This document shows, piece by piece, positions 55,402 to 63,896 of a stretch of DNA of 64,000 nucleotides. The notes under the pieces are model-generated. The model saw only the letters and a program-made list of their open reading frames with translations, was not told where the DNA came from and did no database searches. This DNA is from an uncultured Schlesneria sp. (GTDB lineage: Bacteria; Planctomycetota; Planctomycetia; Planctomycetales; Planctomycetaceae): contig CAIVEI010000048.1 in assembly GCA_903904835.1 (NCBI GenBank), forward strand, positions 1 to 64,000, given 5' to 3'. The first letter of the stretch is position 1; every line of letters starts with the position of its first letter. Both the position numbers and the translations under genes were made by a program.

Positions 55402-55776
55402 ATGAACGACGAAGCCGGCAACATACCGAGCGACTTAGACCCCAAACCGGGTCTTGACCCTGCACCGTTTGAAAACTTGCCGGGTATTTCAAACCGCCCT
55501 GTTACATCCGACGATCAGCCTGTTGTGGATTCGCGTTTGTACGTCCCGGACAATGAGGACTGGGGGGTCGAGATCAAGCGGGATTCGGACAGAATTTACT
55601 GTTATGCCAAACAGCCGGAACAGGATTATTTCCACCTGATCCTGAACGGCGAAATCTACGTCACACGGCAACACGAACGGTACTGTCTCAGTTGTGCGCT
55701 CAGGATGGGATTTCTGACGCAAGATCGACTCTTTTGGCAACATCGCGTCCCCAAGAAGCCAACTCGCGTTCTGTAA
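55402..55776 (+). CDS. Small acidic hypothetical protein
   Basis: A 124-residue protein with no recognised family. The first ~45 residues are acidic and Pro-rich (NDEAGNIPSDLDPKPGLDPAP), probably disordered. A compact second half (WGVEIKRDSDRIYCYAKQPEQDYFHLILNGEIYVTRQHERYCLSCALRMGFLTQDRLFW) is conserved-looking, with two Cys three residues apart (YCLSCA). A GTG five codons upstream is an alternative start. It is convergent with the GYF_2 gene. Confidence 0.65.
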   Translation: MNDEAGNIPSDLDPKPGLDPAPFENLPGISNRPVTSDDQPVVDSRLYVPDNEDWGVEIKRDSDRIYCYAKQPEQDYFHLILNGEIYVTRQHERYCLSCALRMGFLTQDRLFWQHRVPKKPTRVL

Positions 55777-55813
55777 GGGACGCATTGTCTCTCGATGATG
55801 GTCCGTCATCAGG

Positions 55814-57070: not shown

Positions 57071-57325
57071 CCTACCCCTCGGTCCGAAAGGAGCCTGCCA
57101 AATGAAAGCGAGTGCTAAATTGGTTTAGTCCTCGTGCAAGCCCTTCGTCGTGGTCGGGAATTATACGTTCCCTGGCAAATGCCCGCGACCGAACTTCCTG
57201 AAATCGATGTCGTAGTACCGCGTCAACACGAATAATGTGGATGCCACTCAACGCAGTTAACAATTTTGTACCAGGACGTTTCGTATCCTTTCTGGATTGT
57301 CCTGTGTCCTGGAAGGACGAAAGCG

Positions 57326-57537
57326 ATTAGCCGGTCGGTTGAGCGCAGCGACACCACCGGGTCAGGTATGAAGTTGGGATTTTCATCCGGGAAGGATGAC
57401 AGATTTATTTTTCATGACACTTCTGATTTCGCCCAAATCGCATGGTCGATCGTCATTTTTCTGGAATCCCTCCAGGATTCAGGACCTTTCCCGTCGTCAT
57501 ACCCGGTGGTGTCGCTTCGCTCAACCGACCGGCTAAT
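57326..57537. repeat. 37-bp inverted repeat, arms 138 bp apart
   Basis: The arm at 57326-57362 starts ATTAGCCGGTCGGTTGAGCG and ends ACACCACCGGGT. It matches the reverse complement of 57501-57537 at 36 of 37 positions. Arms of this length and near-identity around a ~138-bp core suggest a small inserted non-autonomous element. Confidence 0.85.
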
Positions 57538-57786
57538 TGCTGCAGTCCCTTCGGGACAACGAAATGCGCCATGCCAGACTTTCCGTGGAAAATCGCCATT
57601 CGTTGTGTTAACCGTTCACATGCGATTCAATTCAACACCCGCCTTACGGAAGGATATCAACCGAATTCAGTGAGAACGGTGGATCTCGCCGCAGTCGGTG
57701 AAATTGTTCGCACTGTCAACAATTCGTCGGAACCGTCTTCGTTTTGGAGTTGACAACCATCTTTTCCCCGAAGGGGATACGGATAC

Positions 57787-58005
57787 CAGCCCAGCGGCAA
57801 GCGAGTCTCCGAGCGCCGCCCTGGGTCGCGGTTGAGAGAATTACAACTGCCCTGAAGGGGCACGGTAACACAATGATCGCGTTTCGGGTCAAAAAAATGA
57901 TGCCGAAATTGTGTATCGTCGGTTCCATTGCCCTTACAGGGCAAATCCATTGTTTTTGATTTGTAACCCAGGGCGGCGCTCGCGGACGAGCTTGCCGCTG
58001 GGCTG
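57787..58005. repeat. 40-bp inverted repeat, arms 139 bp apart
   Basis: The arm at 57787-57826 starts CAGCCCAGCGGCAAGC and ends GCGCCGCCCTGGGT. It matches the reverse complement of 57966-58005 at about 36 of 40 positions. The core is about the same length as in the neighbouring pair at 57326-57537 although the arms differ, so both may be related elements of one class. Confidence 0.8.
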
Positions 58006-58058
58006 ATCTCCGCTCCCCTTTCAGGGGAGAGAATCCGCGTCGTGTACGCTAACCTGAC

Positions 58059-60740
58059 TCAGACGAGCTTCATCGCCCGGACATACGCTTCGGCGACTGC
58101 CAAGTTTCGTACTGCCGCCTCGATTGCTTCGACCCGCCCTGTCTCTCGGGCGCGGTGCTCCGCCGCGATCGCTTCGAGTTCATTGATCGCAGTCTGGATG
58201 GCCTGCCCGAGCGGCAGGAACACTGGCGCGTAGCGAGCGGCAATTCGGGTTTTCTCCGATTCCGGCAATCCCTGCTGACGGCGGAATGACGCTGCCAACT
58301 TGTCGCGCCAATCTAAGAGACGTTTACTCAGAACCGGCCCGATCCCCGGCACTTTCTGATAATTCAGGATAGCCACGTCCTTGGCTGTCTCGATGCCAAA
58401 TGATTCCAGTGACAGGATGCGATCACCGGTGATGCCCTTGAGCCTTGCCCAACGGATCAGCGTCTTGTCGAGGTGCTCCTCCAACTGAATCTTATTCGAG
58501 TCAATCTCGGCTTGGCGCAGCTCCCGCTCGTAATCCTGCAGTGTTCCGTCGTGGGATTTGATCACGCCGTCGGCGTTCGCCTTCCGCTGCCCAAATCGCG
58601 AAATGCTCGTTCGCCGCTCCGTCACGAGTTCGTCCTCCATCCGTTTGATCTGCATCTCAGCGGCCAATGCGCGGTCACTCCATCGCTTCTGCTCGCTAAT
58701 CCAAGGGGCGTTTTCGACGGCCCACGCCGCCATGAGTTGTCGGTTCTTGGCGTCGATTTCTTGGCATTGCTGGTGATGTTCCACCTGTAGGGATGCCGTC
58801 AGGGTATCCCAAGCCGAGGTGCGCCGTTGATTCTCCTGCTCTATCTCCCGGCGCGCCTGATCGTAAGACGCTCGGCGAGCCGTATTTTCTGATTCCCAAG
58901 CCGAGAGCGTGCGGCGGTTTTCCTGCACGACCTCCTGGGTAACTCGCTGGTACGCTGCCTCGATCACCTTCTTTTCGACTATCCAAGGTGCGGTCCTGCG
59001 GCGGTTCTCATCGGCGACCGCTTCGCATAGCATTTCGTGCTTTGCGGCCTCAGCTGCGTTCACAACCTTCCATGCGTTCAAGAGCTTCTCGTTAGCCATC
59101 TGAACCGGCTCGATCTGCTCCGCGTATTCCTCATCCATCTGCGCGCATTCCGCTTCGTGAGCCTTTTTCAAAGATTGCTGTGCAATCGCGAGCCGCAATC
59201 CTTCGGTGAGCTTCATAAGGAGCCACACGGCCCCAAAGCCGAACATCATGATCGTGCCAACCGGCCATGCGACGAAGTAAACTAGTACTCCCGCTACGGC
59301 CCCGCCGACGAACAGCCATTCAAGGAAATGATCGGGTGGGTCGGGTGTTGGAACCAGTGGGTAGACTGGCGGTCGCGGCTTGGCATGCAGCGTGGGACGG
59401 GGCAGCAGGACCGGCTTAGCCGGGTTGGGCCTTAGCATCGGGGCGAGCGGGATATCGGGCGCCTCTGGCAGCCGGCGGAGTATCGGCTGGGCCAAGAGGA
59501 CGGGGGGATGCGGTATGGGTATCAGCGCAGGATTCTTTATCGGTGTAGGCGCGGCAGGATGGGGCAGCAACGCGGGCTTCGGAATCGCACGCAAATTGGC
59601 GGGCAGCTTGACCTTGACGGGTAAGTTCGCTGTGGGCCGCACGTAGGAGGCGAACACCAACTGCAAACTGGTGAGCTTCCGGATCAAATTCCGGATGTCT
59701 TCGATCCGAAGCGTCGCACCTGATACCCCTTGACTAGGAATGAAGAACATCAACCGAGCCACCGCGATGAGTTGGCACCACGGGCAACTGCCCGCCGTTG
59801 GATAAGCGTGATTGGGGTCATTCTTGCAGCGTTGGAGCCCCTTCATCGAAGCGTCGAGCACGCCGCGCCACTCGGTCGCCGTCGGACGCTGACGCGAGCC
59901 AAATGCCCGCTCGAACAGCTCTCGCGTGGGGACATCGAGCATCGCCAAGGGCGGAACGTGCGGAGGCGGCTTAAGTTTGCTCGGGTTCCGCGTGTAGGCA
60001 TAGAGCCCGTCCTGGATCGCCTTCTCGATCGGGATGTCGATGTTGATTTGGGGCACACCCGCGAATGGGTGACGCCCCATCATCAGCAGATGGAACACCA
60101 TGACAGCCAAGCCGAACAGATCGTGGTTCGCGTCCCGGTCCAAGTCGGTGAACTTCTTTCCGTGAAGTTCCGGCGGTGTGTACTCGGGTACGCCCACGCC
60201 GCAGCGGAATATACGATTCCCCTCCTTCACCTGGAACGAATCGCAGTCAACCAGAGCGACGATGCCTTTTTTCGATACCATCACGTTCTTCTGGTTGACG
60301 TCGCCCACGATGTGGCCTTGGCCGTGCACGCTCTCGAAGGCTATGGCACAATTGCGAGCCGTGTGTAGGAGGAAGCCCCAATCGGCTTCGGGAAAGTCCT
60401 TCTTGCGTTGGGCCACGCTGTAGAGGTGGTGGATCTCCTTGTGGTCTGCGATTCGAGGCATAAGGATACCCTCGACCGCCGCCGAGGTGCCGTTGCTGAG
60501 CGTCGATATAGGCCAGGCAGCGATCTTGAGCAGATCGGGATTGCACAGCTTCGCCATCGCCCGGAGTTTGTCGCAGCGTTCATTGCTCTGCGGTTTGCTG
60601 TAGAGTTTGGCGACCAGGTCGGGATGACCTATGACGTCGAAGATCGCCCCTTCGCCACCAGTGGCGAAAGGCTTCGCCGGCAGCCGGACGTCATTTCCCA
60701 AATGGTCACGCAGTTGCGTCGGGTAGGTTGGGCGGGACAT
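58059..60740 (-). CDS. Membrane-anchored protein kinase of TerY-P triad
   Basis: An 893-residue kinase. Its N-terminal kinase domain covers about residues 20-290: glycine-rich loop ATGGEGAIFDV, ATP lysine K45 (LVAKLYSKP), catalytic aspartate D147 with N152 in GDVNQKN (no His before Asp), and metal aspartate D165 in VDCDSF. A zinc-knuckle segment, CKNDPNHAYPTAGSCPWC, lies near residue 310. A Pro-rich linker follows (about 370-460), then two close membrane spans (about 472-508), a long coiled coil (about 515-750) with three alternating-ENRRT-type repeats, and a helix-hairpin-helix, NYQKVPGIGPVLSKRL (about 800). It is the third gene of an operon after the vWA and phosphatase genes. Start 60740 overlaps the phosphatase gene by 35 bases. 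G+C is higher than in flanking genes. Confidence 0.88.
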   Translation of the reverse strand: MSRPTYPTQLRDHLGNDVRLPAKPFATGGEGAIFDVIGHPDLVAKLYSKPQSNERCDKLRAMAKLCNPDLLKIAAWPISTLSNGTSAAVEGILMPRIADHKEIHHLYSVAQRKKDFPEADWGFLLHTARNCAIAFESVHGQGHIVGDVNQKNVMVSKKGIVALVDCDSFQVKEGNRIFRCGVGVPEYTPPELHGKKFTDLDRDANHDLFGLAVMVFHLLMMGRHPFAGVPQINIDIPIEKAIQDGLYAYTRNPSKLKPPPHVPPLAMLDVPTRELFERAFGSRQRPTATEWRGVLDASMKGLQRCKNDPNHAYPTAGSCPWCQLIAVARLMFFIPSQGVSGATLRIEDIRNLIRKLTSLQLVFASYVRPTANLPVKVKLPANLRAIPKPALLPHPAAPTPIKNPALIPIPHPPVLLAQPILRRLPEAPDIPLAPMLRPNPAKPVLLPRPTLHAKPRPPVYPLVPTPDPPDHFLEWLFVGGAVAGVLVYFVAWPVGTIMMFGFGAVWLLMKLTEGLRLAIAQQSLKKAHEAECAQMDEEYAEQIEPVQMANEKLLNAWKVVNAAEAAKHEMLCEAVADENRRRTAPWIVEKKVIEAAYQRVTQEVVQENRRTLSAWESENTARRASYDQARREIEQENQRRTSAWDTLTASLQVEHHQQCQEIDAKNRQLMAAWAVENAPWISEQKRWSDRALAAEMQIKRMEDELVTERRTSISRFGQRKANADGVIKSHDGTLQDYERELRQAEIDSNKIQLEEHLDKTLIRWARLKGITGDRILSLESFGIETAKDVAILNYQKVPGIGPVLSKRLLDWRDKLAASFRRQQGLPESEKTRIAARYAPVFLPLGQAIQTAINELEAIAAEHRARETGRVEAIEAAVRNLAVAEAYVRAMKLV

Positions 60741-61464
60741 CGGCGGTGATTCGCGTGGCAAGGAGGAGGGTCTTGTCGTCGTCAGTGCGCTCGTTGACTC
60801 GCTTCGAGCCGAGAAATTCCAGCAGAGAGGCCTGCAATACGGCCTCGTCCGGCCCGTTTCTCACGGCTTTAAACAATGGTGCGAAGAAGCGATCATGGAC
60901 TTTCGCTCCTGCAATGTCGAGGGCGAGCATCTGCAGACCGTCAGTCAGGACCGCCAGCTCGGAGACATTCCGCTTAACGATCTCGATTCTCAGATGTTGT
61001 CGGTGGTCGTCTTCGCTCAGGAATCTTGTGGTGTTGGCATACTCTCCATTGTCCGGCCAGAAGGGGAAGTCGTAGCCATCCGGACCGTCGAAGACGATCA
61101 CGCCGTCGCCCAATTGAGCGAAGGCGGCCCAGCCGTCGCCGACCAGCGCAGCGAGAAAAGTACAGGCAAACTGCCGAGGCGTCGACCCATTGGCCTCGGC
61201 AGCTTCGATCAGGCGTTCACGTGCAACTTCAATCCACGCCTCGACCTGCTCTTTTGTCGGCACTTCATCGCAGGAGGCAACTTCCAAGAAGCGATCGACT
61301 GCCGCCTTGGAACCCAACTGCGAGAACTCGGCGCTACCAGCCCCATCGGCGCACGCGACGACTAGGGTAGTACCTGTGACGGTCCCGGCACAGTAATCCT
61401 GGCATGGCTGCCCCGACCGAACGTGGGACGTGCCCTGTACGCTGCCGAACACGAGTTTCCACAT
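60706..61464 (-). CDS. PP2C-type serine/threonine phosphatase of TerY-P triad
   Basis: A 252-residue PPM-family phosphatase. Metal motifs are ADGAGSAEFSQLGS (D40, G41), FAQLGDGVIVFDG, AVLTDGLQMLALD and, near the end, RTDDDKTLLLATR. The N-terminus MWKLVFGSVQGTSHVRSGQPCQDYC contains the usual conserved Ser/Gln region before the first aspartate. It begins seven bases after the vWA gene stops and overlaps the kinase gene. The product probably reverses phosphorylation by the kinase. Start 61464 was chosen because upstream frame sequence is the vWA gene in another frame. Confidence 0.92.
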   Translation of the reverse strand: MWKLVFGSVQGTSHVRSGQPCQDYCAGTVTGTTLVVACADGAGSAEFSQLGSKAAVDRFLEVASCDEVPTKEQVEAWIEVARERLIEAAEANGSTPRQFACTFLAALVGDGWAAFAQLGDGVIVFDGPDGYDFPFWPDNGEYANTTRFLSEDDHRQHLRIEIVKRNVSELAVLTDGLQMLALDIAGAKVHDRFFAPLFKAVRNGPDEAVLQASLLEFLGSKRVNERTDDDKTLLLATRITADVPPNLPDATA

Positions 61465-61471
61465 TTTGACT

Positions 61472-62227
61472 TCAAACCTCGGTCCAGCCGGGCGCTGGCA
61501 GGCTAACGGTGTCGCCGGGGGAGGACTGGGACACGGCCTGCATGGACTGCGATAGCCACAGGAACATCTCGCGGAAATTGAGGCCCTTGAGCTTCGCCGG
61601 CGGGCGCGCCCCGATCTGAGCCAGCACGTCCATGTTTGCACCTTCGACGGCCACCGTAAAGAAGGCGAATGACTTCGACGCCTCTCCCTGCTTCACCTGC
61701 TCGGCGGCGGACATCCAGGGGTCTCTCGGGTCGGGTTCGCCGTCCGTGATGAGGAAAATCCACGGGCGGTAGTACGAGACGCCATTGGAGCGGTAGGTCG
61801 CTTTGCGCCTGGCAACCATGTCCAAGCCGACAAGGATTGCATTGCCCATCGGCGTGCTGCCGGTGGCGTGCAGGCGCGGCGGTTGGAAGTTCTCGGCGGT
61901 CACGAAGTCCTGGATCGTCGTGACCGTACCGCCGAAGGTTACAATCGCAATCTCGGCTCGGCGGCTGGCTAACGAGTCTGCGCCGAGGGTTTCCTTCAGG
62001 GTTACCAGGCCATCGTTCAGCAGGTCGATCCGAGTCGTCGCGCCGGAGACGACGTTGTAGAACTGCCCGTCCTGCATGACGGTTTGGCCGGTCGCTTGTC
62101 CCGAGTCGCCGACGACCTCGGCCATCGAACCGGACGTGTCAAGGAGCAGCACGCAGGGTACGCGGGGCTCGGGGTTCTCGGCGAATTGGCTCGCCCCAAA
62201 TCCCGCATATTCAAGCTGGTCGGACAT
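61472..62227 (-). CDS. TerY-like von Willebrand factor A protein
   Basis: A 251-residue vWA protein of the TerY type. The metal-ion-dependent adhesion site is complete: D30-x-S32-x-S34 (VLLLDTSGSMAEV), the Thr in HATGSTPMGNAIL and the Asp in FLITDGEPDP. It is the first gene of the operon. In tellurium-resistance and related loci TerY partners a kinase and a phosphatase, and metal-dependent binding of the vWA domain is proposed to assemble them. There is no signal peptide, so it is cytoplasmic. The start at 62227 (MSDQLEYAG) was preferred because a purine-rich GAGAAAG lies ahead. Confidence 0.92.
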   Translation of the reverse strand: MSDQLEYAGFGASQFAENPEPRVPCVLLLDTSGSMAEVVGDSGQATGQTVMQDGQFYNVVSGATTRIDLLNDGLVTLKETLGADSLASRRAEIAIVTFGGTVTTIQDFVTAENFQPPRLHATGSTPMGNAILVGLDMVARRKATYRSNGVSYYRPWIFLITDGEPDPRDPWMSAAEQVKQGEASKSFAFFTVAVEGANMDVLAQIGARPPAKLKGLNFREMFLWLSQSMQAVSQSSPGDTVSLPAPGWTEV

Positions 62228-62948: not shown

Positions 62949-63167
62949 ATGTCAGTGAGCGATACTGGATTCGAACATCACTCACATGTCCAGTGCGAAA
63001 CATCAATTCTATCTTCGAGCGCTGCGAATTCCACTGCATTCGTTTCCGATACGGATCTGACTTGGTTCCAAGAGAACTGGCCGATGCTGTCGGCTGACGA
63101 TCGGGAAGCTGTCCGGGAACATGTTGACCACCTGGTAGCTTTGCGAGTGACTGGCGGTGTCCGATGA
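62949..63167 (+). CDS. Possible small hypothetical protein
   Basis: A 72-residue frame whose second half, LTWFQENWPMLSADDREAVREHVDHLVALR, resembles a helical segment found in short planctomycete and phage-associated proteins. The first half is Ser-rich and unconvincing. There is no clear ribosome binding site. Listed as possible only. Confidence 0.3.
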   Translation: MSVSDTGFEHHSHVQCETSILSSSAANSTAFVSDTDLTWFQENWPMLSADDREAVREHVDHLVALRVTGGVR

Positions 63168-63407: not shown

Positions 63408-63896
63408 ATGACAAAAACTTGTGAAGTCTGCCAAACGGTTCCCGTTATTGCCCGAAACCGGTGCCGACGGTGTTACAAGCTTTTGGAGCGGCTTCCGAAA
63501 CTACCGCCCAAATTGTGTCAAGTCTGTGGTAAACCGGCTGTGGCCCGGAATCGCTGTTCGACTCATTACAAGCAATTGGGATTGAAGCCCGGCCGGACGA
63601 CTCCCTGTCAAGTCTGTGGTAAACCGGCTTTGGCCCGGAAACGCTGTTCGACTCATTACAAGCAGTTGGGACTGAAGACCGGGCGAACGACTCCCTGTCA
63701 AGTCTGTGGTAAACCGGCTTTGGCCCGGAAGCGTTGCAGCGGGTGTTACAAACGGTTGAAACTTCCTCCCATGGTTCCCCCGAAGCCGTGCACGGTTTGC
63801 GGGGATCCAGTTTGTGCCCTGGGGCTCTGTAGGCGGCATTATCAGCGAGCATCGAGATTGAAACGGTTGGCCGGAACTCTGCCTGCAGGTGATTGA
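63408..63896 (+). CDS. Five-repeat zinc-ribbon-like protein
   Basis: A 162-residue basic protein made of five tandem motifs of form C-x2-C-x9-10-C-x2-[HC]-Y. They begin at residues about 5 (CEVC...CRRCY), 37 (CQVC...CSTHY), 67 (CQVC...CSTHY), 97 (CQVC...CSGCY) and 128 (CTVC...CRRHY). The middle two are nearly identical at DNA level, which points to recent duplication. No catalytic domain is present. Zinc-binding repeats with Arg/Lys-rich spacers suggest nucleic-acid or protein binding, which is inference. The start has GAGGGG six bases upstream, one of the best ribosome binding sites in the window. Confidence 0.7.
   Translation: MTKTCEVCQTVPVIARNRCRRCYKLLERLPKLPPKLCQVCGKPAVARNRCSTHYKQLGLKPGRTTPCQVCGKPALARKRCSTHYKQLGLKTGRTTPCQVCGKPALARKRCSGCYKRLKLPPMVPPKPCTVCGDPVCALGLCRRHYQRASRLKRLAGTLPAGD

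Follow-up and report, generated by a model that had tools for sequence, protein, structure and literature searches.

What kind of system is encoded by three closely packed genes in an uncultured member of the planctomycete genus Schlesneria, and how did it come to be there? The genes lie in a 64,000-nucleotide stretch (positions 1 to 64,000 of contig CAIVEI010000048.1, assembly GCA_903904835.1), here called the window, and code for a von Willebrand factor A (vWA) protein, a PP2C-type Ser/Thr phosphatase and a Ser/Thr kinase. A preliminary description, made from the sequence alone, had likened them to the TerY-P triads. The three-gene operon is a laterally acquired planctomycete form of the yegL-pphC-yegI protein-phosphorylation module. 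This type of module is already known, its Escherichia coli form being yegL-pphC-yegI. What is new is a planctomycete subfamily with a Pro-rich linker and five to seven tandem 29-residue helical repeats in its kinase, the gain of the operon from outside the genus, and the exchange of the C-terminal module among relatives, which carry helix-hairpin-helix (HhH), WD40, FGE-like, Lcl_C or Top1 zinc ribbon regions. A search of the open-access literature, covering titles and the starts of abstracts and using no repeat-specific terms, yielded no description of the 29-residue-repeat subfamily.

A planctomycete form of yegL-pphC-yegI

All three proteins are homologous to those of E. coli K-12, and their genes stand on one strand in the order yegL, pphC, yegI. 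Pairwise BLASTP aligns the vWA protein with YegL over its full length at 51% identity (E 2e-73), the PP2C protein with PphC at 36% identity (E 8e-43), and the kinase with YegI at 41% identity over residues 22–324, comprising kinase domain and zinc knuckle (E 2e-75). A second segment of the kinase, residues 732–885, aligns with YegI at 26% identity and joins the HhH regions of the two proteins. The vWA and PP2C genes are 7 bp apart and the PP2C and kinase genes overlap by 35 bp, just as the preliminary description had it, with coordinates and strand correct (Table 1). In E. coli K-12 yegJ lies between pphC and yegI on the opposite strand, whereas the window operon has no such gene.

Table 1. 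Features of the operon and its 3' flank (window coordinates).
Feature	Position	Strand	Basis or remark
vWA gene (251 aa, YegL homologue)	61472..62227	-	first in operon; BLASTP against YegL, PF00092, metal-site motifs
PP2C-type Ser/Thr phosphatase gene (252 aa, PphC/YegK homologue)	60706..61464	-	BLASTP, PF13672, metal-site Asp
YegI-type Ser/Thr kinase gene (893 aa)	58059..60740	-	last in operon; BLASTP against YegI
Kinase domain (~residues 20-300): GGEG loop, K45, D147 in VGDVNQKN, D165xD167	59841..60683	-	alignment, Foldseek
Zinc knuckle C305-x5-H311-x7-C319-PW-C322 (CPWC at 319)	59775..59828	-	alignment
Pro-rich linker (~residues 360-465)	59346..59663	-	alignment; model without secondary structure there
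Hydrophobic stretch 471-512, read as two-helix membrane hairpin	59205..59330	-	hydropathy and model helices
Five tandem 29-residue helical repeats NxxxxxAW... (residues 550-694)	58659..59093	-	self-similarity
Probable tandem HhH region (~residues 762-817)	58290..58457	-	alignment with YegI and relatives; model
Second inverted repeat 3' of operon	57760..58032		copy of dispersed genomic repeat
Inverted repeat 3' of operon	57305..57558		copy of dispersed genomic repeat, outside the system

The vWA protein matches PF00092 (VWA; E=2.5e-7) and carries the metal-site motifs DTSGSM at residue 30, TPMG at 125 and ITDG at 160. DxSxSM is kept in all of 32 related vWA proteins; these motifs were counted by pattern search because an insert of ~25 residues upset the alignment, in which the conserved columns stop at residue 47. 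The insert follows DxSxS, sets the window protein apart from YegL, and is also present at one planctomycete locus (L010) and not at another (L008). The phosphatase matches PF13672 (PP2C_2; E=1.1e-48), and its metal-site aspartates are well kept among aligned PP2Cs, D40-G41 in 34/34 and D175-G176 in 33/34. The complete vWA metal site and complete PP2C phosphatase read earlier from the sequence are thus both present.

E. coli YegI is described as an inner-membrane Ser/Thr kinase whose autophosphorylation, on Ser, is reversed by PphC (PMC13232886); the same source mentions that earlier work found no condition promoting yegI and pphC expression. Elsewhere YegI is listed among eight known Ser/Thr and Tyr kinases of E. 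coli (PMC8463566). The operon belongs to the E. coli core: 5342 of 5426 complete genomes match 80% or more of the query at a single site.

Architecture of the kinase and its repeat array

The match of the window kinase to Pkinase is below the Pfam cut-off (1.6e-6; 28.1 bits vs 31.7), and Foldseek finds the kinase fold in its model (e.g. PknB 5u94, E 1.0e-7). The catalytic loop reads VGDVNQKN instead of HRDxxxxN and so has no HRD histidine. K45, D147, D165 and D167 are invariant in 19/19 aligned kinases, as are the presumed zinc ligands C305, H311, C319 and C322, with knuckle spacing that differs in a few rows. By hydropathy, a hydrophobic stretch follows the knuckle in 18 of these 19. The full-length AlphaFold2 model, built with 8 sequences, comprises the kinase domain and helices 471–490, 492–676 and then 678–759 (mean predicted local distance difference test score, pLDDT, 82). 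The hydrophobic stretch of the window kinase is long enough for two spans and broken at residue 491 in the model, and likely crosses the membrane twice.

The preliminary description had listed an 893-residue kinase without catalytic-loop histidine, a CPWC knuckle, a Pro-rich linker, repeats and two membrane spans. All are present, save that the double crossing is likely rather than proven. Its view that the kinase is unusual did not hold, because the already published E. coli YegI has the same GDVNQ non-HRD loop, CPWC/CHCC knuckle and hydrophobic stretch and a C-terminal HhH region with which that of the window kinase probably corresponds.

What the window kinase has beyond YegI (893 vs 648 aa) is the long Pro-rich linker and the five 29-residue repeats. 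In the 19-kinase alignment the long linker is restricted to a planctomycete subfamily of five: the window kinase and those of L007 (a Pirellula metagenome-assembled genome, MAG), L008 (Singulisphaera), and L009 and L010 (Planctomycetota MAGs). These kinases share 55–68% identity, and their repeat array, which follows the hydrophobic stretch and precedes the HhH region, stays in frame. Repeats of the window kinase start at residues 550, 579, 608, 637 and 666, and its arm gives self-similarity peaks at lags 29 and 58. The strongest lag is 29 in four of the five subfamily kinases; L009, one unit of which has lost its Trp, peaks at 58 with 29 second. Four of the five have five units and L010 has seven, a difference of exactly two units. 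The array was not found in the other 14 aligned kinases, YegI among them.

At the C-terminus, the first HhH hairpin is degenerate in the window kinase relative to YegI (GIT, for GVG in YegI), while the second keeps GIG. A separate model of residues 740–893, the last 154, consists of the HhH and a long helix (mean pLDDT 89). Judged from sequence and model, DNA binding by this region is plausible. The planctomycete kinases might even serve as a tether from membrane to nucleoid with the repeats as a ruler, the copy number (5 or 7) setting the reach of the HhH and DNA within that reach causing the kinase to fire. We consider this decidedly improbable; were it true, phosphorylation would signal where the nucleoid or incoming DNA lies with respect to the membrane.

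Acquisition from outside the genus

The G+C content of the operon block is 60.4%, against a mean of 52.2% (standard deviation 1.6, maximum 58.8%) in 546 overlapping windows as long as the block; these cover 19 sampled stretches (294,543 bases) together with the remainder of the window, and L064, which reads N, was left out. G+C at third codon positions (GC3) is 0.718, 0.688 and 0.817 for kinase, PP2C and vWA genes, compared to a mean of 0.564 and a maximum of 0.669 in 144 genes of at least 250 aa each. A tree was built from 38 kinase domains, omitting second locus copies, L021, L038 and L042–L046. In it the window kinase falls within a five-member Planctomycetota clade (support 100/100), where Pirellula is its neighbour (97/89), and apart from three congeneric kinases; a grouping of the window kinase with its congeners is rejected (approximately unbiased, AU, test, p=3.49e-9). 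The block is thus richer in G+C than its surroundings, with no comparison window as high and a distinct GC3, and composition and tree agree with the horizontal acquisition that had been proposed. The kinase is rare in its own phylum, with matches (E up to 1e-20) in 8 of 294 sampled genomes, and occurs in 4 of 15 genomes of its own genus, the window's genome being counted in both.

Six congeneric stretches match the window at the nucleotide level, and every match stops at 55752–55782. An empty site in the congeners was considered and rejected: four of the six stretches run on for at least 14 kb past 55752–55782, and none of them has a protein matching the window there. In three draft congener genomes the sequence past tRNA-Val is on other contigs, and the exact insertion is not readable.

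The preliminary description had also pointed to two long inverted repeats as a sign of transfer. They do exist, 3' to the operon, but are uninformative about transfer; as element ends they were rejected, being part of a dispersed repeat. The 735-bp stretch that holds them (57301–58035) has 116 matches in the same genome (self and part matches included), none of them outside the window in the 294-kb sample. On the other side, starting ~730 bp from the triad, is a tRNA-Val integrative element of ~11.9 kb (62956–74903; L056:10903). The tRNA-Val gene is at 74883–74955 of the contig (C48), beyond the window, a 21-bp repeat of its end is found at 62956–62976 and 74883–74903, and an integrase (Phage_int_SAM_5, 1e-6) reads into the tRNA gene; a resolvase and a PhageMin_Tail protein are also present. 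The triad is outside this element because the 21-bp repeats do not enclose it, and was rejected as its cargo. Inside the element, 63408–63896 codes for a small Cys-rich protein with three 90-bp repeat units (DZR_2 E=0.0002, below cut-off).

Foreign composition and a position adjoining an integrative element would also fit a silent or decaying passenger with no present role. We regard this as very improbable, since the three frames are open with intact catalytic residues, and the 55–68% kinase identity with an in-frame repeat array across five loci suggests selection.

Elsewhere in the window, a tmRNA gene with the tag ANKPLTLAA is present at 2287–2636.

Related loci, exchangeable arms and function

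We compared 39 related loci (L006–L010, L019–L041 and L110–L120); L011–L018 are shorter copies of L031–L038, and L042–L046, distant kinase matches without a vWA (E 2e-7 to 4e-15), were left out. The loci span Planctomycetota, alpha-, beta- and gammaproteobacteria, Deinococcota, Cyanobacteriota, Acidobacteriota and Actinomycetota. They are not independent: two are from E. coli, two from Pseudomonas plasmids of one group, and L110 and L111 are near alike. All three genes are present, in order, in 35 of the 39, and two have PP2C and kinase alone, namely L009, which is cut by the contig end, and L112, whose genome carries a vWA on another contig. Kinase homologues never linked to vWA and PP2C genes would have weakened the preliminary description, and this is not what the loci show. 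Kinase matches were found in 54 of 72,556 plasmid records, with the triad in all 20 of these 54 that were examined, although one (L021) has a kinase reading frame split into two parts. Among 50,697 phage records there was one weak kinase match, and three putative viral contigs of IMG/VR (L039, L040 and L041) each contain a complete triad.

Clustering of 29 compared stretches gave no gene family beyond the triad in more than four of them, the neighbours being taken without a PADLOC scan; the layout list for these stretches filters nested frames and misses some vWA and PP2C frames, while the locus gene counts above are unfiltered. Chaperone genes occur as neighbours, yegD beside yegI in E. coli and a J-domain gene beside the Cupriavidus triad. 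A conserved chaperone partner was rejected, as the J-domain protein of the Cupriavidus triad occurs in one plasmid record only. At L033:8657–10219 a single frame, possibly that of a fused regulator, is hit by the PP2C as well as the vWA model; the kinase and a further, separate vWA gene lie next to it.

The C-terminal arm differs among relatives: it is HhH in the YegI type, HhH plus Zn_ribbon_Top1 in a Sphingomonas relative (L113), WD40 in L115, FGE-sulfatase-type domains in L034 and L041, and Lcl_C in the lone kinase L032, and no named domain stands behind the knuckle in L110, L118 and L036. Within the scanned set of swapped arms (L113, L115, L034, L041 and L032), only L032 is without vWA and PP2C. 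Variation in the arm, with vWA and PP2C persisting in all but this one case, would be expected if the arm serves in sensing or docking, and the relatives thus appear to be built from a signalling core and an exchangeable arm of this kind.

Would such a module serve in anti-phage defence, as TerY-P does? Infection would then be sensed and the kinase, freed from PP2C, would phosphorylate host proteins and stop growth. TerY-P is reported in a commentary to act against T7-like phages (PMC7699616), and another paper describes it as a hypothesised metal-sensing switch whose kinases have zinc ribbon or OB-fold ends, with kinase-OB-fold fusions in defence (PMC11090510). The window operon shares the vWA, PP2C and Ser/Thr kinase composition. 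Its patchy occurrence in the phylum, its presence on plasmids and on the three IMG/VR contigs, and the location of some triads near an AbiEii-family toxin, HipA or DNA methyltransferases also point that way. The PADLOC TerY profile, however, gives no clear match (E=0.012), and matches to mad6 and PD-T4-6 kinases cover the kinase domain only in part (best for PD-T4-6 6.7e-8, residues 129–230). Instead of the zinc ribbon or OB-fold reported for TerY-P, neither of which was found by Pfam or in the model, the window kinase ends in a membrane stretch, coiled coil and HhH-like region. The lack of a common neighbour family beyond the triad and the E. coli homologue's place in the core genome, unlike typical patchy defence genes, argue in the same direction, and we think a defence role unlikely. 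The TerY-P-like composition and the membrane anchor suggested earlier thus stand; the link to defence is not supported. Actinobacterial vWA/PP2C/kinase genes found beside GAP1-N2 GTPases offer a further parallel, in that the kinase, often with a zinc ribbon or transmembrane helices, likewise adjoins PP2C and vWA; that set is described as restricted to actinobacteria (PMC7159879), whereas the window operon is planctomycete.

The preliminary description had suggested a sensor of DNA or of a damaged end. Consistent with this are the HhH-like C-terminus and the Top1-type zinc ribbon of the Sphingomonas relative. For the C-terminal part the top Foldseek matches, none of them significant (E 0.2 or worse), are among others to RAD51 and Y-family polymerases, and also to MnmE-MnmG. 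RAD51 and Y-family polymerases contain HhH motifs. Repair genes also lie near some triads: alkA in E. coli, a Y-family polymerase on three Pseudomonas plasmids, and an SOS-associated peptidase and DNA-3-methyladenine glycosylase I near further triads. Apart from the three Pseudomonas plasmids, the clustering showed no stretches with a repair gene family in common, and other relatives have WD40, FGE-like or Lcl_C domains. SOS control was rejected, with an exact LexA-type box (CTGTN8ACAG, GTTCN7GTTC or GAACN7GAAC) in 0/11 upstream regions of 300 bp from relatives, a set that does not include the window's own. Damage or DNA-end sensing is thus quite unlikely, and the earlier proposal was an inference that these arms and upstream regions do not favour.

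Our preferred reading is that the operon probably works as a laterally acquired phosphorylation switch of the YegL-PphC-YegI type, for which we infer the topology, the ligand, the role of the vWA protein and activity in this organism. A two-helix hairpin would hold the kinase in the inner membrane, leaving two cytoplasmic arms: one made of the kinase domain and zinc knuckle, the other of the repeat-built helical region with the tandem HhH at its end. This second arm, either itself or through a bound partner, may sense or dock on a ligand in the cytoplasm, nucleic acid being the likeliest, upon which the kinase would phosphorylate itself plus a further target. The PP2C would undo this phosphorylation, and the metal-dependent vWA protein may act as an adaptor or target-presenting subunit.

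Several observations weigh against this switch. The HhH near the kinase end, noted earlier, aligns with that of YegI and is modelled, but its profile match is weak (HHH_5 E=0.099, and 0.00093 for YegI, both under the Pfam cut-off), and its first hairpin is without the second Gly. Foldseek gave no significant match to the C-terminal part (best E=0.2). The predicted template modelling score (pTM) of the full model, 0.42, leaves domain placement unsure, and kinase L020 has no hydrophobic stretch by hydropathy. By simple patterns, TPxG is missing in 4/32 and TDG in 3/32 related vWA proteins. Finally, kinases L032 and L036, both of one planctomycete genome, have no vWA or PP2C within 14 kb, and the genome of L112 (G303), as said, has its vWA on a separate contig; the triad is therefore not absolute.

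In Rhizobium and Sinorhizobium, 14 of 15 plasmid records with the kinase have hxsB (His-Xaa-Ser radical-SAM) within 6 kb of the kinase match, as counted on 60 of the 415 hxsB records listed. At the four such loci compared (L026, L029, L030 and L120) the genes are co-directional in some and convergent in others, and HxsB/HxsC-like genes adjoin the triad of Cupriavidus sp. P-10. Against a strict link, most hxsB records fall outside the set of kinase records, 316/415 being from Klebsiella. A functional link of hxsB and triad is possible, and the rhizobial His-Xaa-Ser neighbour genes suggest what the arm may sense.

Seen in this way, YegI represents a single lineage within a mobile module found in several phyla, in which a C-terminal arm that can be swapped is joined to a core of vWA, PP2C and kinase. 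The module offers a way in to YegI, as arm swaps, repeat-number variants and natural neighbours hint at the ligand of the arm.

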